Below, in pieces: positions 958 to 40,268 of a stretch of DNA of 64,000 nucleotides. The position numbers and the translations under genes were made by a program. The stretch spans positions 35,252,501 to 35,316,500 of the forward strand of contig NC_092568.1 of the NCBI RefSeq assembly GCF_037975245.1. Reading direction: 5' to 3'. The notes beneath the pieces were generated by a model. That model did not search any database. It saw only the letters and a program-made list of their open reading frames with translations, and was not told the origin of the DNA. This DNA is from Apostichopus japonicus. Its lineage: Eukaryota > Echinodermata > Holothuroidea > Aspidochirotida > Stichopodidae. Position 1 is the stretch's first letter; each line of letters begins with the position of its first letter.

Positions 958-2897
958 ATGGCGGCTCCCACGGGCGCTAGTCAGTCTCCGACGCACGGAA
1001 ATCTACAGTGCTCAGTGCACATTGAATCTGTAAAATTTGAAGCAGTCAAGGCACTGACGAATAAACGACGGACTAAAGTTACTTCCTGCGCTAAAGATTG
1101 GCTTAATCTCAGCGGCGGAGACAGTGATATCGCCGTACTACTGATTACTCCATGCCCTACTACGATCAAGCGTGTGTTCAACAGCATAGTAGTATGATGG
1201 GGTTCCACGATAAGTGTTACAGGCGGTTCATTGATAGCAAGCACATTGCTGCAAGAAAACGGACAGTTCCAGAGGAGACCCCATATGATTTTAAACGAAG
1301 AATTGACGGAAAAGATCGAGGAAACCAAGCAGAAGCTCTGGTGTATTGCCTGTTCAATTTATTATATGTGGGAAAAGAAACAATACATTACTCGGCGTTG
1401 CAAACGGGTGCAGGGCAAGCTGCAGCAGGCAGAGACTTTCGATGGAGGTAAGCCTAAGCATACTACACGACTCTACTTGTACTTCTGTGGCATAGTTGAA
1501 GTGTTAAGAGAAGTTGCATAATGCAAGATCAGTAGCTCTTGAGGGATAGAATCCAAGTCAAAGGGCACAGTGTTGGACCTGAACATAATATAATTAGTGG
1601 CATGGTCATCTGATTTGTTTTGTTATAAGTTGGTAGGAATGGAAATTTGTTTCAAATTCTCCATCTGGGGCACTAGCCTAAGTGTTAAATACAGGCTTCA
1701 TAGTTTTCTTACTGTGGCCCTTTATTTGAATGATAGAGATATTATATTAGTTAGAAAAATAAGTGTAACAAAGGTGCAATAAGGTTAGGTTTGCAAGGTC
1801 TTATGGTCAGCCTGTCTAGCTTTACCAAAATGAACAAGTATCTGTCTCCTTTATTATTAGTAACAGATATAATCTACCATTGTATAATTTAAACCATAAC
1901 ATTAAGAGATACTGTACTGTCAAAAAAGCCTGTTTTAATTCTTTTTTGCATGACACTGGTTTGCAAAATTTGAATGTGTCTTTGTTTGTCCATAGAAGAT
2001 GAGCAGATCACATGGTATATAAATAAAATTGTCTTAGTTCTTATTTGTTCAAACTTACATTTTGATCAACAGAAAATGCAAAACAATTTGTTTTTTTTTA
2101 TTTCATTTTATTAAAGTATTGCTTCGACAAGCAGCAGAGCGGAAAAAAGATGAGCCCAGATTTTATGAATATTAGAGGAAAAGACCGTGTTGCCATTGAA
2201 GTGAGGTACCACTCTCTATGTTGAAGAAACTAGATACAATTCTTGACAAGGAAGACATACAGATCTTGAAAGGTAAAGTACTCTCTTCAATGTGTGGTTC
2301 AGGGGTGGATCTAGGACTTTTGGAATATGGGGGTCCTCCCCCAAGGAAAATTAAAAAATTCTCTAAACGCTTTGAAATGCAATATCAGGTTAATCTTTCC
2401 ATTGAAATTATTAAAGTAATTTGCAACATATTTCTAGCTGAATTGTTATTATATTGGTACCCCATCATAAAATGTGAGACTCAAAAATATCCAATTTCAT
2501 GGTACAAGGTGTTCTGTTCATCTCCTCCTCAGAGCAGAGTTTACCACCAACAAAAGATGCTCTGATCCAGCATGTTAAGCGCTGCACCAACCAGGCTGCT
2601 ATTCACAGTAGGGCATTGCAGCAAAGGATTGATGCACTCTCACCAGAGGGACATGGATGGAAACTTGAAAATGATGGCCTTATAATCACTTGGATGACGA
2701 AGCCACCTGACCCAGATGTTTTGCTTCAGTGTGTCAGCAGTAGCTGTAGAGTCGGCAAATGTCTTAAAGGAAGATGTTCCTGAATGAATGCACAACTACC
2801 GTGTACAGACCTATGTAAATATAGAAATTGCAGCAACTTCCAAGAAGATGTTGAGATTGTTGATGCAGGGGAAGATGATTTGGAGGATGAACTGTGA
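958..2897 (+). pseudogene. Decayed three-exon gene of a repetitive, transposon-like zinc-binding family
   Basis: I reconstruct three exons. Exon 1 (958-1447) starts ATGGCGGC and ends at a GTAAGC donor. It has a one-base frame change between the start and the segment GFHDKCYRRF, and another frame for CIACSIYY and KLQQAETFDG. Exon 2 (2117-2272) follows a TTAAAG acceptor and encodes LLRQAAERKKDEP, then after a frameshift GKDRVAIEVRYH, then stops. Exon 3 (2533-2897) follows CTCCTCCTCAG and encodes LPPTKDALIQHVKR and SPEGHGW. It is interrupted by a TGA at 2781-2783, probably a former Cys codon in a Cys-rich tail, but stays open to a natural-looking acidic end (EDDLEDEL) with a stop at 2895-2897. 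From memory, this architecture (HxxCY modules, then LPPT and SPEGHGW, then a Cys-rich tail) occurs in many uncharacterised, highly repeated proteins of marine invertebrates. The middle of the usual protein seems to be missing. No biochemical function is claimed. Confidence 0.72.
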
Positions 2898-4163
2898 TGG
2901 TGTTAAATCTTGATATCTTAGTCTGAAATTTTAATCAAGTTTGAAGTTTGTGAAGAGGGTTAACTTTTTCAAAGTCATGTTGTCATTATTTTGTTCCCCA
3001 GAGTTTAAAGGAACCAGAAAACATGATCTTATTCATATATTCATTTTAGCTATTAGTAGTTTTACGTAGATTACCCTACCTACCAGACACCTTATGATAA
3101 ATATCCACATTTTCTTCAAATCACACTTTTTTTGCTGAGAGGGGAGGGGGGAGGAAGGTGTTATGGGCATGCTTTACCTCTTGCATATTCACAACTACAT
3201 TTACTGATGACGATGAGGCAAATACCACGTCCTGAAACCAGTCAGAGGTTTATATACTGTTGTTGGGGAACCATCGCCCCTGACCCTGTTCCAATATCAC
3301 GGTTCTTTATTGTTTTGCCGTAACATTTCGTTACCTGTTTTATTCATATTGTTAACACGTTTTGTGCATCTGTTCAAGTTTTGACTGAAGGATATTCAAG
3401 TCTTTAGTGACTTTTATTTCATCTAATTTATCTTCACCTCTACTACGGAATGGACTTTCCCTTTTCCATACCATATCTGACTTCCATGCAGTGAATTGAA
3501 GTGGATCCTGTTATAACTAGTACAACTGTCCTTGGATGAACTTTTAATCACTTATTAATTCCTCGCCGCGCCTTTTGATGAAGAACCTGTATCTTGAATC
3601 ATCGCAAAGGCCCAGCTCTACTACACCATTGAGTGTATCGACCCAGTCTTAATAGATACATTATTTCTTTCTATCTGGGGCTTAAGTTAACTGTCTTCGT
3701 TATTCACTTATTTGTACCATTCACCTTTATTATTCATATTGTGAATATAGAACTATTATTATTCAAAATACCATTCGAAACCTTGTCGATCTTTTCTTTT
3801 ATACGTTAACTCCATTGGAAACACTTTTTGCAGGAATACGAATTATAAACATGTCGTTTCCGTAACATGGAGAAAGTACCTAGTTTTGCAGAAGACTGTA
3901 GAAAGAGTACTAACGTAACGGATATATACCGACTAACTTTATTTCACATCTACGATATGCCATGATGTCTTAGTGTGCCAACTTATATATTGATTTATAC
4001 AAAAGAAATAATTCACTGGTCTTGGGGCATTGGCACATCTCACTGTAACTAGGGATTTAGCTACATGTAAAGTAGAGGGGGAGGGGGTCACATGTGTAAA
4101 ACAGTTTGGATGGGGAGTGTAACAATTATGGAGAGGAACTTTTCATTATATGTGTATATTTAC
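2898..4163. other. Non-coding stretch, nothing recognised
   Basis: This stretch lies downstream of the decayed gene. It is AT-rich with short G runs. I see no gene, tRNA or repeat that I can support. Confidence 0.4.
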
Positions 4164-13319: not shown

Positions 13320-14045
13320 CATCAATTTTCTGCAAATTGACGAGTTGCACACTTACTACCATCTCGACAAAATGACAAAATTCAGAAAATTGACGTTTTG
13401 ACGAGATAACGGATGTCGTCAATGCATGAATTTTCTGCAAATTGACGAGTTGCATACTTACTACGTATACCATCTCGACAAGATGACAAAATTCAGAAAA
13501 TTGATGCATTGACGAGATCCGTTATCTCGTCAAAACGTCAATTTTCTGAATTTTGTCATCTTGTCGAGATGGTAGTAAATGTGCAACTCGTCAAATTGCA
13601 GAAAATTGATGCATTGACGAGATCCGTTATCTCGTCAAAACGTCAATTTTCTGAATTTTGTCATTTTGTCGAGATGGTAGTAAGTGTGCAACTCGTCAAT
13701 TTGCAGAAATTTGATGCATGGACGAGATCCGTTATCTCGTCAAAACGTCAATTTTCTGAATTTTGTCATCTTGTCGAGATGGTAGTAAGTGTGCAACTCG
13801 TCTATTTGCAGAAAATTGAAGCATTGACGAGATCCGTTATCTCGTCAAAACGTCAATTTTCTGAATTTTGTCATTTTGTCGAGATGGTAGTAAGTGTGCC
13901 ACTCGTCAATTTGCAGAAAATTGATGCATTGACGAGATCCGTTATCTCGTCAAAACGTCAATTTTCTGAACTTTGTCACGTTACCATCTCGTCAACTCGT
14001 CAATTTGCAGATAATTGTCGTTTTGTCAAGTTGGTAACTCGCCAA
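13320..14045. repeat. 105-bp satellite with an orientation switch
   Basis: GACGAGATCC recurs at 13511, 13616, 13721, 13826 and 13931, a period of exactly 105 bases. Each unit carries the palindrome GACGAGAT-ccgtt-ATCTCGTC. Between 13320 and 13500 related units run in the opposite orientation. The switch is a perfect inverted repeat with 35-bp arms at 13470-13504 and 13538-13572. Because 105 is a multiple of three, one frame stays open across the array as a 35-residue repeat; I treat this as incidental. Confidence 0.93.
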
Positions 14046-30765: not shown

Positions 30766-30771
30766 TTTATT
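30766..30771 (-). terminator. Possible SAA polyadenylation signal
   Basis: AATAAA on the minus strand, about 375 bases past the SAA stop codon. It is the first such hexamer I see downstream. Its use is inferred from position only. Confidence 0.4.
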
Positions 30772-31143
30772 TAACTCATTTGGGAAACCTACAAATGTTA
30801 TTCCACCCTCTCTGGCTCATAGCTATATTATTATTACACATATATTTTTACTCAAACACTTAACCTCTAACTCATATATTCCGGACAACAACAACCTCCT
30901 AGAATCTTCTACTAAAAGTAGTGTTTAAGCTAAAAAAAAATGATTAAATGGTAAGGTGGCGTGTTTTATCCAAATGCTGATCAGCTGATGGGAAGAACTT
31001 CATTTTAGCAATTTGACCATTTGTCCCAGCATATTTATAGTATATTTATAGTAAAACATCACTTGTTGTGCTTATGTCATCATGGGTCCACTAAAACGTA
31101 ACTAATTCTTGTATAAATGCTATTGTTGTGCACTTTTATGTCT

Positions 31144-33233
31144 TCAGTATCTATCAGGAAGGCCTGGTGGCCTGTAACGGTTGGGATCCCCTCCATTACG
31201 TCCATGGCGATTAGCCTCCTGGTCAGCCCTACTGTCCTCGTACCCGCGACCGCTGGAAGATTGAAAACTCTCTCTGCCATTGCTACATTAGGGAGAGAAA
31301 CACCAAATATAAGTAAAATTGAACAAACTCGAAATATTTTCAGCAAATCGATGAATAAGAACATTTTGTGCAATTCCTTTTAACTGAAATTCAAAAACAG
31401 AAATCCAGGTCATATTTTTGCAGCAGGAAATGTATGTCGGATCCACAAGACATAGTTTCCTGTATTTATTAGTAAAACATGCTTGTTGTAATAAATAGTA
31501 TAGGATGTGAGGCCAAATAAAAGAAGAAAAAAAATAGTTTCTCGTCCCCGCTGTCACGCTTTTTTTGGCCGCATGGATTTTTTTGGCTTCTCCAACATCA
31601 AAATTATAATATTTTACCAAAAAATGGCTTGTCCGACCCCGGACATTATCTGTCGAAGTCTTTAGCGATGTTTCGTTCCATTGTGGGCTTGGTAAGGCGT
31701 GCTGCCAACGGGCCCTTCGGATACCTAAAAAATAGGGCCCTCACGCCGACTTTTTCCGAAAAGTTAGGACGATAAACTATTTTACTTGGCCTGAGTAACT
31801 TTTGATACTCACCTGATAACTTCAGCTGCCCATCTGCCCCCTGGTCCTCTATTGGCAGCATCATAGTTTCCCCTGGCATGAAAGTATTTGTCTGAGTTTT
31901 TATAGTTTGCTTCCCTCATGTCGCTATAGGCTCTATACATGTCATAAGCCCCTGTGCAGAAGACAAACGATGATGGACTTTGGTTACATGAACGAGTTCA
32001 TAAAATATTAATCATATCATGAAAAACACAGAACATTAGATAACGTACATGTCAGAGGACCTGAATGTGTAGTGATTCCATGCTTATTGGGATCATGCAT
32101 ATTAAGAATGGACTTGACATCGCTACAAAACTACGCAACAAAAAACGCTACAAGACTTTTCAGTATTTGATCTCCGAGAATTGCAAAACCAACAGGTATA
32201 ATATAATCACCATAGGGAACAAGCATACAAAGTATGAATTGATGGTTGACTTATTGTGGTTACTACAAAAGAAATCGAACATTTTATTTTTTTTACCCAC
32301 ACTGAGTTAGTTATTTAGATAGCTTTTAACGACGCACCAACACTTGCGGTTTATGAAGCGTCAGTCAAAGGTTAGTTAGTTAGTCTACAAGATGAAACAG
32401 TAACAAGTCCTCCCTTTTAGTCGCCTCTTTCGACAGACAGGGAGTACCTCGGTCCTATTCTACCGCCCTGACTTACATGGGGGTCACCCAAACTGAGCTC
32501 AGACCTCTACTGAGATCATTAGGGGGGACCTTGTACTCATCATGAGGATCATACATACCAAGTTTCAATTTGATCCGACAAGGCGCGGTAGACGTAGCGT
32601 GTTTACAATATTTTCAGTCTCTGACCACTGTTGGCCGCGGATGACTTCTAACCTCACCCAAAAACAACAGGGATCATGTAATTATCGAGCAAATTATACC
32701 TACCAAGTGAACTTGACCAGATCAAGCATGGTACACTTATCATGTTTTCATGTTTACATGAAAACAGTACACAAAAATACCAAAAATCACATATTTCCAT
32801 TTTTTACCAAAATTGGGTTGAGACATCTACCACGATCAATAGGGACCGGACCGTCTACTCAAAGTGAGAAACATACATAACAAGTTTCAACCCGATCCGA
32901 CCAGGCACGGCAGACTCGGCGTGTTTACAAGATTTCAGTGTTTGAGCTCTGTTGACCTTAGATGATCTCTGACCTCTCTCAAATACAATGGGGGTCATGT
33001 ACTCATCATGAGAAATAAACCTACTAAGTATAAACTTGATGTGACCAGGCATGGTTGACTCGATTGGGACCCTTTTGATTCGCAAGGAATCAACAGGTGA
33101 TATAAATTCTTACTATGAAGACAGGGAAAATGTCAAGTTTCTAACCTACAGCAGCCTCTCCTGGCCAATTGTACCACTGGGCGTGAGTTTCCACAATGAG
33201 AATGAGGACAGGTCCTGCAAGTAGCAACTTCAT
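31144..33233 (-). CDS. SAA: Serum amyloid A, three coding exons
   Basis: SAA is a small secreted acute-phase apolipoprotein-like protein; in vertebrates it binds lipoproteins and is induced by inflammation. Coding exons on the minus strand are 33233-33146, 31951-31813 and 31282-31144. The introns have GTTAGA..CAG and GTGAGT..TAG borders. Together they give 121 residues, near the family's usual length. Residues 1-18 ([18 protein letters not shown]) form a signal peptide. Residues 37-46 ([10 protein letters not shown]), 49-58 ([10 protein letters not shown]) and 59-72, including RGPGGRW, are the SAA signature. [20 protein letters not shown] and GLPDRY end it, as in SAA. The TAG acceptor before 31282 is chosen because it restores the family's ISNxRE motif; a CAG nine bases inside would drop it. 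The start codon follows a CTTTTAG acceptor 12 bases upstream, so the 5' leader is spliced. All residues I would expect are present and there is no break, so I regard it as functional. Family identity is very secure; expression is inferred. Confidence 0.96.
32290..32490. mobile_element. SINE-like remnant in SAA intron
   Basis: It contains TTTTAACGACGCACCAACAC near 32325 and TTTTAGTCGCCTCTTTCGAC near 32416, followed by AGGGAGTACCTCGGTCC and TATTCTACCGCC. Very similar strings are, from memory, part of abundant SINE-like repeats of marine invertebrates. No A/B boxes or target duplications are clear, so the class is uncertain. Confidence 0.4.
32500..33095. repeat. Degenerate tandem repeats in SAA intron
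   Basis: Three diverged units share GGGATCATGTA or GGGGTCATGTACTCATCATGA, AAGTTTCAA, and GACCAGGCATGGT-like blocks, at roughly 180-190 base spacing. They resemble the AGGTCA-rich sequence at 26.5-30 kb. Confidence 0.6.
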
Positions 33234-33322
33234 GGCTGTAGATGCCTAAAAGTGGAGGAATACAATTATAAGGAACATAAATTCTAAAAAAATGCAAAAA
33301 CTGTCCATAGACACATCCTTAA

Positions 33323-33780
33323 AGGCCCTGTCTCGTCTACTCGCCCTCTATATTCAGTTATAGAGGGAGAGTAGACGAGATAGGGCCTATAAAATACTGG
33401 ATACTGAAGTACTGTATATTGTCACTTAGGACTTTCGTATTCTGTCTCCTCTTATATAATGTCCTGCAGTGTTGGTCCATGGAACTTCTTAATCATGGAA
33501 ATTCCGTTAGGAGACAGAATGTTGTTGTCACGCAATTGAGCATATCCGACGCTGCACCACAGATGCTCAAGTGCGTGACGACCCGTTCTTTTCACGTGTT
33601 AGGCGTATTGTCATCACCAGATGAATTGAGTGAGACTCGCTTAAATATAGAGGGCGAGTAGACGAGATATGGCCTTTAAAATACTGGATACTGAAGTATA
33701 TTGTCACTTAGGACTTCCGTATTCTGTCTCCTCTTATACTGTCCTGCAGTATTGGTCCATGGAACTTTTAAATCATGGAA
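33323..33780. mobile_element. MITE with duplicated unit in SAA leader intron
   Basis: Arm AGGCCCTGTCTCGTCTACTC (33323-33351) pairs at 27 of 29 bases with 33360-33388, forming a tight hairpin. A second forward-type end lies at 33647-33675. Each forward end is followed by the same sequence (AAAATACTGGATACTGAAGT, CACTTAGGACTT, GTCCTGCAGT). So a unit of about 287 bases is duplicated (33389-33512 and 33676-33780 are its repeated tails). TTAAA flanks the outer ends. No transposase is present. Confidence 0.75.
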
Positions 33781-34289
33781 TTCCGAACAAAATGATGTTG
33801 CTATTGAGTTTACACACTAATTGTCTTCCTGGAGATCCTCGCTAACAGCAGCCGCCCTGGAGTACAGGTTCGAAAAGAACGACCTAAATACCTCAGATGC
33901 CTAGTGACCTGACTTAGCGTGGGTTGTTCGCACAATTGACGTTGTGTTTATGAAGGGTTCACAATCGTACAAAATCTCTCTATGAGTCGGTATTCACATC
34001 TGGTCGGTTTTCCCTCAAGTTACCCTATTATATAGTTGACTCAATGTAATCAGTCTTACAAGACACTCGTAACTCCCATATAATAACGGGCTTTGCGACA
34101 GTGTCTATCCACGGTCGATCACACCTCAAAGTTCCCCAATAAGTCCCAAGTGGCTTCCTGAGCCAAAGTAACACAGTTAGAATACCAGTCATAACATATA
34201 GTCAGGGTGCTAGCCCAGTTTCATTTACACGTTTGAGGACGGAAGGTTTGATGGTCCCGATCAGAAAGTCTCATGGGGTCTGGGGAATG

Positions 34290-34835
34290 AATATATATGA
34301 AATTTCCTTTTTTTCCAGGCGGCAATATTAAATTCTGGCCGCCATCTTGGAAGTGGGTGGCCCAAGCAACATACCATGACCATCATTTGTTTCAGTGAGC
34401 TCGGAAACACCTTAATTGACCCCTCATTTGTTCATCTCCGAATTTTACAGCCAGATATATGACATTTCCTTTTTTTCTGGCGGCCATCTTGGATTTTGGC
34501 CGCCATCTTGGAAGTGGGTGGCCCAAGCAACATACCATGACCATCATTTGTTTCAGTGAGCTCGGAAACACCTTAATTGACCCCTCATTTGTTCATCTCC
34601 GAATTTTACAGCCAGATATATGACATTTCCTTTTTTTCTGGCGGCCATCTTGGATTTTGGCCGCCATCTTGGAAGTGGGTTACGCAAGCAACATGCCATG
34701 ATAATCATCTGTTTCAGTGACCCCGGAAACACCTGAATTGACCCCTCATTTGTTCATTTCCGATTTTTACAGCCAGATATATGACATTTTCTTTTTTCTG
34801 GCGACCATCTTGGATTTTGGCCGCCATCTTGAAAA
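34290..34835. repeat. 161-bp tandem repeat in SAA leader intron
   Basis: GGCCGCCATCTTGG recurs at 34337, 34498, 34659 and 34819. Units 2 and 3 are almost identical; the outer ones are more diverged. CAGCCAGATATATGACATTT is common to all full units. A related but scattered copy of the GGCCGCC / CCAAGATGG motif appears near 50580-50780. Confidence 0.95.
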
Positions 34836-35029
34836 ATCGGAACCGTCAAAGTGGGTTCCACGGATAAAATCGATAGATAGGTCGAAAAGAAACTCCATGC
34901 AAAATTTGGTATGTCTTATAAAATGTTTCCAATAAATTTTTATAATCATACCTAAGTTGAAAAACACCTCTCCTCAATTGCTATGCAACTTTGAAAAAAT
35001 GTTGTAATGCATGAAGATAACGATGGAGA

Positions 35030-36450
35030 TTTATTGTGACTCGCGTGACAAGAAAACGTGACTCGCGTGACGAGTTCACTTTTTGGATAGTTCTAGACCA
35101 AATGCAGTAGTGAATCGAAGGTATAGATCTTGCATAGTGAAATATAACATTCATTGGTCTAGAAAGTGTCCAAAAGGTACTTCCCTTGGGAATGTCCAGA
35201 TGATATTAATGTCCCCAAGTTACTGCAGACAGTAGGTAATACACTATACGGGTAGTACAATTGTTCAGGCAATATATCTTGTCAATTTAAAGTAAATAAC
35301 AATATTTAGTCTGTTGAAGTCACCCATTTCAAAGTTATAGAAGAAACAGATCTATCAAAATGTGATTCAAATTACCATTCTCATTTGTCATATTTGAATA
35401 AACCAAAAGTGTAATATTTGTGAAGATACATTTCGCTCATAGGATTTTGGGAATGATTAAGCAGTTAAAACTTTAAGGTTGTCAAGTCATAGCACATGGC
35501 ATTGCCAGATACAAATATAGATTATGTTTTTGTATATTACTAAAAAATCAATGACATGTGCTAACTTTCCAAATGTGGTGATAAAAAGGCATTATATTGC
35601 GAATAAATATTCATGATTTTATATTCTGATATTTCAAATGAAATTATTATAATTAGTTTAATTATGTGTGTCCATATTATTCAATTTGCCTAATAAAAGG
35701 GGAATGCATATATATCTTTAATCAGTGATTTATTCATCAAACTATTACATCCCTGTAATTTTCACACAGTAATTAGGTAGAAACACTATCTTGATTTGAC
35801 GTGACTCGCGTGACGTGACTCGCGTGACATTCGTTAAGGGTGATTTTCTGCAAAATTTGAATATCTTCTGAATAGGAAAATTCAGTAATCCTTTTGGTAT
35901 CTATGTGAAGACTTGATATTTATCATTTGGAGTAAAACTTTTGTGCAGGCAAAGAGAAAAAACAAAAACAGTCAATTTTGCGACTCACGTGACAGTAAAT
36001 CGAGGGTGTTTTCAATTCACCACTGTTGTCTAATGCCTTGATGTCAACAAAAATTGAAGCTATTAAGTGAGCACTGTGCTATAGCAAATATTATTAGTCC
36101 AACACAAAGTAAATAGGTAGAAACACTATCTTGAATTGACGTGACTCGCGTGACGTGACTCGCGTGACATTCGTAAAGGGTGATTTTCCGCAAAATTTGA
36201 ATATTTTCTGAAAAGGAAACTCAGTAATCCTTTTGGTATCTATGTGAAGACTTCATATTCATTATTTGGAGTAAAACTTTTGTGCAGGCAAGGAGAAAAA
36301 AAAGAGAGTAAATTTTGTGACTCGCGTGACAGTAAATCGAGGGTGTTTTCAATTCACCACTACTGTCTAATGCCTTGATGTCGAAAAAAAATTGAAGCTA
36401 CTAAGTGAGCACTATGCTATAGCAAATATAATTAGTCCAAAAACTGATAT
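35030..36450. repeat. 340-bp tandem duplication rich in GTGACTCGCGTGAC
   Basis: Copy 1 (35774-36113) and copy 2 (36114-36440) are near-identical, starting AGGTAGAAACACTATCTTGA. The 14-mer GTGACTCGCGTGAC occurs twice back to back at the start of each copy, again once in each copy in a slightly varied form, and twice near 35038-35075. No coding potential is seen. It lies inside the inferred SAA leader intron. Confidence 0.93.
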
Positions 36451-36454
36451 ACCT

Positions 36455-38100
36455 ATGATTACTATGTAAAAATCTGCAGAAAATGAAATTTCAGTGTAAT
36501 TTTCATAATTTTAGTTTCTACGGGAACCATTTGTTATTACCGACCCCATAATCAAACAAATGATGTTTCGGGGTTGAAAAAAATATTTTTAGTAACTACA
36601 AGTATTCTCTTTATTGGAAACTTATACAATTTTAATGTACAATGATTTTAAATTTGTTGGTATGATGTTGACCTTATCATGGAATTGACCATAGGCTTTC
36701 ATCTGATACTAAATTAATGGGGGTATAGTGAATGAAATTTCTGAAAAAAATGTCCCAATTTCCCTTGGGGGTTAGAAGTTTTACCTTTTGCCCTCAAATT
36801 TGACACCGGCATTCCAAAAAAATCCCAGAGAACCCCTAAAAAAGGAGACAGGTCCCAATTTTTTTCCAGTAACTCCCCCTGTCCTGTTCGTGCCACTGAC
36901 AAAGTTTCAGGAGCATCCCCGCTTCCATTTGGGAGGAAAGGGGAAACATTGGTGAAAATTAGGTCAAATTTGAGTCAAATCAGGTCAAGAAACAGCCGCC
37001 ATTCGAAAGTCATATCTCCTGACCCTCCTGGCCGATTTTCAAGCTTATTGGACTGTCCAGATTGTAGAACCATGTTTAACCGAATGTTGTGAAAGTACTC
37101 AAAATTTTACCCTGTGAGGTTCAGACAACTAGTGAGAAGCATTTCCGTTCGGAGTCGACGTTCGTAAACAAAGGATTTATATCATCGACAGCGAGAACAA
37201 ATTGCCGATTTTTTCTGGTAATTTCTTTCAGTCCAGTAAGTTCACCCTCCCTGAAGGCATTCTAGCATTGTTTTGGGCTCTAAATGTCAAAATTCCTAGC
37301 CAAATCGCAGCCAAAACCAACGTGAGCCGAAGCTTGTTTTTTTTCTCCAGCCTAACGCTAGCCTGTAAAAAGAAAATGGAGGGGTCAAGCCTAGGCTCCA
37401 GCCACGCGTAGTTTGATAGGATCTAGGACCCATTATGATTGGGACAATAAAGGATTTTGGTGGAATAAAATGGGATAAACTGGATACATGAGGGGAAGTT
37501 AGCTTCTTAGGACCTTCTACTGTCACCAACTTGGGTGACTAGTGCAACCGTGTTCGTGAGAGGCACCCCCGATGGCGGGGGAGAGACATCGAAATGGGGG
37601 CCTATCAACTTTTTGAAAATATTGTCAGAAAGCTCTCTTTGTGCTGAGCAAATTTATATGAGGTCATCATCGACAATTCTGAGCCAATTCTGAGTGTTTT
37701 TTGTTTGTTACTTAAAATTGACAGGACGAATTTTTGAAATTAAGCGCTCATATAATTAATTACCTGATCGACGAGAGTGCATGTTAGCATTTCGCACGTG
37801 ATTGATATACCACGTATATCATGTGATTGAGATATCACATATACCACATGATTGAGAAACCACGTATACTGGACATATTTCTAAATGGCTCTTCGTAATG
37901 CAAATGAATAAATAAATGTACCCCATTCAGCATCTCTCTTGATGTTGCCTGCATTTTTCTCTGGGTGGGGTGGGTAAAGAGGTTGTACTTCTTGTGTCCT
38001 ATTATATAATATTTACTATTTATCATGTTAACTGCATGGAAATGGCAACATCTATAATTGTTTGTGAAATAAAACCTTTACAACTCAAACCCTGGTTCTT
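36455..38100. other. Intronic non-coding stretch, nothing recognised
   Basis: This would be the 5' part of the inferred SAA leader intron. I see no other gene or repeat that I can support. Confidence 0.4.
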
Positions 38101-38165
38101 GCTTTAAATCTCTAAGAAAAATAATGTAACGCAACTATTTCAGTCTTGTAATGTACAGTACTTAC

Positions 38166-38420
38166 CAGAAGGCAAATAAAGGAAGACAGCAGCAAAGGTT
38201 GATACTGGAAACAGACGTCGGTGCAGGATTCTTATTAAAGAGTATAGCAACGATAGGGCAACGGCAACGCAATGACAAATATGTCAGTTTATGTTATCGC
38301 GAAGCTACTTATATACACAAAGAACAAAGCCCGGGCCCACGACGAACGTCGTAAAACATTAGGTTTCTTATGTGATTGGTGCATTTTTGGATGACGCGTT
38401 TAAAGGCCGCTTACGATTGG
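38166..38420 (-). promoter_or_regulatory. Inferred SAA promoter and non-coding leader exon
   Basis: On the minus strand, two CCAAT boxes (38420-38416 and 38379-38375) precede TATATAAG (38315-38308). About 118 bases after a start predicted near 38284 there is a strong donor, CTTCTG|GTAAGT, with the exon ending at 38166. That leader contains no ATG. The first coding exon of SAA has an upstream acceptor (CTTTTAG, exon start 33245), so a 4.9-kb leader intron would join the two. A non-coding first exon is the known layout of vertebrate SAA genes. The link to SAA is inferred from strand, splice signals and the lack of any other gene between. Confidence 0.6.
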
Positions 38421-38845: not shown

Positions 38846-40268
38846 TGTTAAATCTTGTTAAGTATACATCTTGTTAAAAAACATATATATTCTCTGACAG
38901 AAAAATATTTTTCTCTAACAAAATATATAAATTCTGAGACAGAAAAAATATATATATTCTCTAACAACAAAATTCTATTCTGTGCAAAAAAATATATTCT
39001 GGTCGAAAAATATATATATGCTGTACAAAGTACCAAAACATATATATTCTCTGACAGAAAAATATTTTTCTCTAACAAAATATATAAATTCTGAGATAGA
39101 AAAAATATATATTCTACAGGAAAAATTATATTCTGTGCAAAAATATATTTTTATTGTGTGTACAGAAAATATATATATTCTCTATAATTCAAGACCTATT
39201 CTGTGCGAAAAATATATTCTGTACGAAAAATATATTCTGTGCGAAAAATATATATATGCTGTACAAAGTACGGAGCTCTGTAAGTGCTGACCAAGATGTT
39301 CAGTAACTTCAGCAGTGACCAGCCTGTTCATTACACTGGCCATTCATAAAACGCACATGTTTGCTCAGAATCTTAATGCAGTTCATAGTTAGTGGGTTTG
39401 CGATATCACATTGCACATGATAGTACCCGATTATTCCATAACAACTCCCTGATTGTACGACGGTACGTTCGACAGCGAAGCCTTCTGTACCGTAACTAGC
39501 CGGCTTAACAGTAACTGCTCACTTCTTCACATTTCAAGGTTATTAGTTTGGAACGTTAGCCGGTGTGTTACGTAAGCAGTTTGCCAAACCTTGCAAAGGA
39601 AACGAACGTGGGAAAGTCATTTGCACAGCTCAAATTTCCTGCGATCTACCGCAAGTGCCTATTGAAATCTGTAAGGCAGGTAAACTGTTACGTCAGTGGT
39701 GCAGGGCGCATTTCACTCAATTGTATATTTTTTTTAGAGAATATATATATTTTTCTCTTAGAGAATATATATTTTCTTTCTCTTAGAGAATATATATATT
39801 TTTGCTCTTAGAGAATATATATATTTTTTCTCTTAGAGAATATATATATTTTTACACTTAGAGAATATATATATTTTTCTCTTAGAGAATATATATATTT
39901 TTTCTCTTAGAGAATATATATATTTTTCTCTTAGAATATATGTATTTTTTCTCTTAGAGAATATATATATTTTTTCTCTTAGAGAATATATATATATTTT
40001 TTCTCTTACAGAATATATATATATTTTTCTCTTACAGAATATATATTTATTTTTTCTCTTAGAGAATATATATATCTTTGGCATAGAAACATATAATTTT
40101 TGTGTAAGTATATATATATTTACAGAATACTTATTGTTAGATAATATATTATTATAAACATATATACAAATATGTCTAAAATGTATTTTGAAGTTAACCA
40201 TGTATATATTTCACAAGTACAGCATATATATATTTGTACGTAATATATTCCGCTTTCTCGCGCCATAA
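38631..40268. mobile_element. Foldback-type element built of AT-rich subrepeats
   Basis: The left end TATGGAGCGAGAAAGCGGAA plus TATATTA.GTAC matches the reverse complement of the right end (40236-40267) with two or three differences. Similarity continues inward for over 100 bases (ATACATGGTTNACTTCAAAA, TTTTAGACATATTT). Inside, subrepeats of about 28-40 bases fill both arms: TATATATTCTCTGACAGAAA on the left and its counterpart TCTCTTAGAGAATATATAT on the right. An unrelated 430-base centre lies at 39285-39720. It interrupts a tandem unit and seems to have replaced about 43 bases of it; no target duplication is visible. Confidence 0.85.
39285..39720. other. Unique centre of the foldback element
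   Basis: Balanced-composition sequence between AT-rich arms. A plus-strand frame at 39565-39786 starts MLRKQFAKPCKGNERGKVIC but runs into the arm repeats. I recognise no domain and do not call a gene. Confidence 0.4.

Follow-up and report, generated by a model that had tools for sequence, protein, structure and literature searches.

Does a 64,000-nucleotide stretch of the Apostichopus japonicus genome (contig NC_092568.1, positions 35,252,501 to 35,316,500; hereafter the window) carry a working gene for serum amyloid A (SAA), and how much of the vertebrate gene plan and of the proposed ancestral chemistry of this family has it kept? The original prediction had assembled, from three minus-strand exons with proper splice sites, a complete SAA gene encoding 121 residues, and this part of it is borne out by the evidence given below. 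The reading that we favour is that the gene is nuclear and intact, consists of a leader and three coding exons and encodes a secreted SAA, which would be a lipid-binding protein of ~103 residues, possibly capable of catalysis; judging from the sequence, we put its probability at about 0.87. The coding exons and the 3' end are as follows.

33245-33146, minus strand: exon 2, with the ATG at 33233, 12 nucleotides (nt) of 5' untranslated region and 88 coding nt (exon rebuild and tblastn, 66.6 bits)
31951-31813, minus strand: exon 3, 139 nt, residues 30 (part) to 76 (part), with His54 inside and a phase 2 end
31282-31144, minus strand: coding part of exon 4, 139 nt, residues 76 (part) to 121 and the stop codon
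30766-31143, minus strand: 3' untranslated region, ending at an AATAAA signal

When exons 2-4 are spliced at GT-AG sites in a scripted rebuild of the minus strand, they yield an open frame of 121 residues plus stop, in which the 366 coding nt contain neither a premature stop nor a frameshift and every splice border is preserved. Exon 2 is preceded by ctccacttttag and its intron opens with gttaga; exon 3 is preceded by tcttctgcacag and followed by an intron opening with gtgagt; exon 4 is preceded by tccctaatgtag. A hydrophobic leader and the first mature residues are encoded by exon 2, which ends in phase 1, and a hydropathy scan finds the N-terminus hydrophobic, as in a signal peptide. Exon 4 carries Asn77, Glu80, Asp96 and the ANxxGR motif; the last base of its stop codon is 31144. 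The two coding introns (1194 and 530 nt, by arithmetic from the exon borders) lie in phase 1 (after residue 29, within codon 30) and phase 2 (within codon 76), just as had been predicted. The AATAAA at 30771-30766 is the sole AATAAA or ATTAAA motif in 31143-30500.

The product matches a single Pfam family, SAA (PF00277), with an E value of 9e-46 (154.9 bits, the cut-off being 30.8; the match spans positions 4-102 of the 102 in the profile), and all eight PDB matches at E ≤ 0.001 carry the name serum amyloid A or amyloid protein A (best E 1.8e-43). Alignment to vertebrate SAA, which the original prediction had proposed as a check, showed 66-70% identity to three mammalian chains, ungapped over 101 residues: 67% to 4ip8 (SAA-1), 70% to 6zcf (SAA-2) and 66% to 4q5g (SAA-3). 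From their molecule names we take these chains to be human SAA1, mouse SAA2 and mouse SAA3. The protein retains 58 of the 65 positions that are invariant across the three, the seven departures being W23, Y35, N77, G78, S85, N105 and G107. Searched one by one with tblastn, the exons scored 102, 102 and 66.6 bits; when the window was dinucleotide-shuffled 50 times, some match was obtained in 49 cases, the best reaching 25.0 bits. As a control, Pfam recovered SAA pieces in the unspliced raw frames at exon 3 (1.4e-24) and exon 4 (1.2e-11). No second SAA copy was detected in the window by tblastn (beyond the three exons, the next matches scored ≤20.8 bits), and Rfam gave no matches at gathering scores.

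A wider search of bacterial and archaeal genomes with the SAA profile confirmed two of 182 pattern stretches. The first (L001, positions 2665-3318 in a Rhodobacteraceae bin) is a 217-residue frame that ends in a Pfam SAA domain (1.5e-18) and also matches RHS below the cut-off (E 0.00015, 22 bits against 27.9); a frame upstream of it contains RHS repeats (6e-15). The second (L002, positions 3034-3306 in a Caulobacteraceae bin) is a 90-residue SAA open reading frame (ORF) with an E value of 2.8e-16, preceded by a long ORF that, by eye, we take to be terminase-like. The single-protein scan confirmed none of 29 pattern stretches in genome contigs and none of two in viral contigs, and the alignment-based scan none of 27 in viral contigs. 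In one pairing each, the L002 ORF had no match in phages and the L001 SAA domain none in plasmids. Toxin tips with prok-SAA domains have already been published (PMC12419801).

We aligned the window protein with the three mammalian chains and these two bacterial domains. Since L002 lacks the N-terminal part, residues were judged across all six sequences from position 41 onward. There, the other five sequences share the same residue in 24 columns, and the window protein retains 23 of them. His54, Glu80 and Asp96 are invariant in all six, and so is A99-N100-x-x-G103-R104, which corresponds to the sNxxGR motif that the SAA-Wnt clade has in its fourth core helix. According to a 2025 paper on the Lipocone superfamily, the ancestral active site is inferred to comprise His (H2), Glu (H3) and Asp (H4); one more polar position lies close to where H3 ends, and sNxxGR is given as a motif of the SAA-Wnt clade. 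The paper proposes lipid head-group catalysis for animal SAA (PMC12419801). Our tentative assignment of the active-site residues follows the six-sequence invariance and the text of that paper.

How closely does the gene plan match that of vertebrates? In the ungapped protein alignment, codons 30 and 76 line up with Gly13 and Ser59, respectively, of mature human SAA, the sites where we take the vertebrate SAA introns to lie. A literature search for exact vertebrate SAA exon borders yielded partial statements only. Mammalian SAA genes have four exons and three introns (PMC6117975, PMC12110822, PMC3795699, PMC7933664), and the first exon is non-coding (PMC3795699), likewise in SAA4 (PMC13163884). 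Human SAA codons 52 and 57 lie within exon 3 (PMC7933664). In the pig, forward primers sit in the first 94 coding bp, and exons 3 and 4 were called too alike (PMC3795699); if 94 coding nt is the length of pig exon 2, it amounts to 31 codons plus 1 nt and gives a phase 1 intron, like the 88 nt (29 codons plus 1) found here. A presumptive read-through product running from SAA2 exon 3 into SAA4 exon 2 has 208 residues (PMC6117975) and pre-SAA4 has 130 (PMC13163884); the difference of 78 residues fits a vertebrate exon 3 that ends near codon 77, at the Ser59 site. Intron phase and position agree with the vertebrate plan indirectly, as far as it can be read from published text. As for the vertebrate-like layout claimed earlier, the published plan of four exons with a non-coding first one fits, but the leader in the window is plausible only, for which three candidate features are relevant.

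38315-38309, minus strand: TATA-box-like TATATAA, candidate core promoter (motif scan, consensus match only)
38290-38166, minus strand: candidate non-coding leader exon 1, its 5' end a guess, with donor G/GTAAGT
38165-33246, minus strand: candidate intron 1, putatively 4.9 kb, repeat-rich

The promoter and leader intron of the original prediction survive in part: the motifs TATATAA, CCAAT (at 38420 and 38379) and GGTAAGT are present. The GGTAAGT at 38166 is the only one in the 5.2 kb of 38420-33246, where GTRAGT occurs twice, and the TATATAA at 38315 is one of six TATAWAR motifs there. In the whole window, the pairing of TATAWAR with GGTRAGT is seen twice on the minus strand, one case being the candidate leader, and the plus strand has none. 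However, TATAWAR 60-250 nt upstream of GGTRAGT also arose in 15 of 500 shuffles of 38420-33246, and a leader exon and promoter at 38420-38166 are therefore plausible rather than proven.

The coding exons could also be real with transcription beginning just upstream of exon 2, leaving neither a leader exon nor a 4.9 kb first intron. A second TATATAA at 33458, ~213 nt upstream of exon 2, would suit such a start, as would a leader signature weak enough to recur in shuffled sequence. On the other hand, 12 nt separate the ATG from the end of a pyrimidine-rich acceptor, cctccacttttag, which is what splicing to a leader would predict, and the non-coding first exon of mammalian SAA genes (PMC3795699) points the same way. 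We consider a start next to exon 2 unlikely, though a serious contender.

Several repeats were noted in this region. Candidate intron 1 contains a 161 bp tandem unit in 3.3 copies at 34293-34831, with AAGATGGCGGC/AAGATGGCCGCC motifs that resemble a YY1 site, and a duplicated block of ~340 bp at 35763-36440 with short TGACGTGACTCGCG arrays. Fold-back repeats just upstream of exon 2 (33319-33780; arms 33319-33354, 33359-33392 and 33644-33679) resemble a small non-autonomous mobile element, and an AT-rich 25 bp tandem array occupies 39734-40121, ~1.3 kb upstream of the candidate promoter.

Might an active SAA gene lie elsewhere in the genome, the one described here being a duplicate of it that is silent or has recently died? 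Its surroundings were surveyed by a Pfam scan of raw frames in 20 frame-chunks of ~15 kb (E limit 0.01), which covered the window apart from the plus strand at 1-15 kb and 45-49 kb, one plus frame at 30-45 kb, one minus frame at 1-15 kb and one minus frame at 30-49 kb. There were 15 frame-chunks without a match, two with SAA exons and three with RVT_1 (one match of 51.5 bits, above the cut-off of 29.6, and two of 29.4 and 25.4 bits below it), which mark two sites.

12556-12191 and 12167-11901: reverse-transcriptase remnant, split over two frames (Pfam raw frames)
56970-56689: reverse-transcriptase remnant (Pfam raw frames)

Reverse-transcriptase pieces being the only other domains in the scanned frames, there is no neighbour gene on which synteny could be judged. 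A 105 bp tandem repeat (13494-13978; 4.6 copies, 96% match) lies ~0.9 kb from the first remnant. A setting in which only retroelement remnants are recognised besides SAA would be in keeping with a dead duplicate, and so would Asn77, a change at a site where the five sequences compared all agree. The uninterrupted 366 coding nt and the 58 of 65 mammal-invariant positions retained argue otherwise; because the coding introns are present, the gene is not a retrocopy. A dead duplicate appears very improbable to us. Chance assembly of unrelated open frames can be dismissed as practically negligible, given the Pfam E value of 9e-46 and the gap between 102 bits and the 25.0 bits of the best shuffle.

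In the intact secreted SAA gene that we favour, the leader exon and the three coding exons would be transcribed from the minus strand, and the 121-residue precursor would shed a signal peptide of ~18 residues to give a soluble four-helix SAA of ~103 residues. The mature protein would most likely bind membrane lipid debris and bacterial surfaces in injury or infection, sites at which lipid binding by SAA has been argued for (PMC6557629). Lipid head-group chemistry of the Lipocone type might be retained, His54, Glu80, Asp96 and Ala-Asn100-x-x-Gly-Arg all being present.

Several observations weigh against this reading, and the first group concerns expression. The leader exon, secretion, inducibility, lipid function and catalysis are properties that we infer, and that transcription has to be added to them counts against the reading. 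The donor of exon 2 (AG/GTTAGA) looks weak by eye; an alternative GT four bases upstream of it leads to an early stop in exon 3. No NF-kB motif, strict or loose, was found in 39200-38166 or in 33800-33246; the former segment contains two loose C/EBP motifs and two STAT-like TTC-N2-4-GAA motifs, and the latter none of either. In the sea cucumber Holothuria glaberrima, SAA is raised by lipopolysaccharide (LPS) on Northern blots, which speaks for the reading, but a microarray in the same study showed no significant SAA change (PMC2702171).

The second group concerns the protein. The one change among the 24 shared columns is Asn77 for Asp, encoded by the first complete codon in exon 4 (31279-31281 region) and three residues before Glu80. 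By its place in the sequence, Asn77 may fall on either of the H3 positions, two in number, that the Lipocone paper describes as polar, which makes catalysis by the window protein doubtful; the replacement could weaken or abolish the head-group chemistry. At the N-terminus, WYNWPG (with a proline) stands where human SAA has FFSFLG, and two serines replace the Phe pair close to where helix 3 ends. With assumed helix borders, mean hydropathy is lower than in the three mammalian chains in h3 (-0.70 vs -0.06 to -0.34), h4 (-2.51 vs -1.09 to -2.05) and the tail (-1.90 vs -1.53 to -1.59), and falls inside their range in h1 and h2. Because h3, h4 and the tail are less hydrophobic, the sequence hints at weaker lipoprotein binding.

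What, then, does the locus add? The window gene is a real, intact-looking and ordinary example of a known family of small secreted proteins with immune and lipid-binding roles, found in vertebrates and many invertebrates. SAA was already familiar from the latter: in sea cucumbers it has been known since 2000, from H. glaberrima (Santiago 2000 and 2003, cited in PMC2702171), where it is also raised in gut regeneration (PMC7801731), and SAA or SAA-like proteins have been described from a clam (PMC5712350) and a fan mussel (PMC13093298). A tree of SAA over molluscs, echinoderms, ticks and bacteria was presented by Zamocky and Ferianc in 2023 (described in PMC13163884). The suggested usefulness of the gene for studying how the acute-phase response arose was overstated, because SAA has long been on record from invertebrates, as has the finding that LPS induces it in a sea cucumber (PMC2702171). 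The gene alone alters no current view. It does add a further full SAA gene model in which the introns are exactly placed, of service to annotation and to the dating of the SAA exon plan. Its product, in which His, Glu and Asp are kept and Asp77 is altered, is a useful protein on which to test the idea, published but unproven, that SAA in animals is an enzyme derived from bacteria. A broader scenario, which we regard as speculative and rather improbable, would have the gene plan (leader, phase 1 at Gly13, phase 2 at Ser59) predate the split between the host lineage and vertebrates and follow the acquisition of an intronless bacterial SAA; as the product still has most of the predicted catalytic residues, the SAA of that ancestor would have been a secreted antibacterial lipid head-group enzyme, and the present copy would perhaps be drifting from enzyme to binder through the change of Asp77 to Asn.

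Among known systems, holothurian SAA, set beside the window gene by description only, provides the invertebrate precedent, with its rise after LPS and in gut regeneration. Vertebrate SAA (human SAA1, mouse SAA2/SAA3) resembles the window protein at 66-70% identity, the domain being alike through the C-terminal GLPxxY, and its published plan of four exons and three introns with a non-coding exon 1 fits the gene. The window protein differs from it in having WYNWPG and SSS for phenylalanine-rich stretches and Asn77 for Asp, and it lacks the octapeptide insert of 7zh7 and SAA4 (PMC6117975). The bacterial SAA-like domains (prok-SAA, with L001 and L002) are encoded in a single open frame without introns and are more distant, L001 and L002 showing 45 and 42% identity in the six-sequence alignment and 39 and 40% over the best segment in the profile scan; yet they have DKYFH, RE, D, ANxxGR and RPxGLPxxY in common with the window protein.

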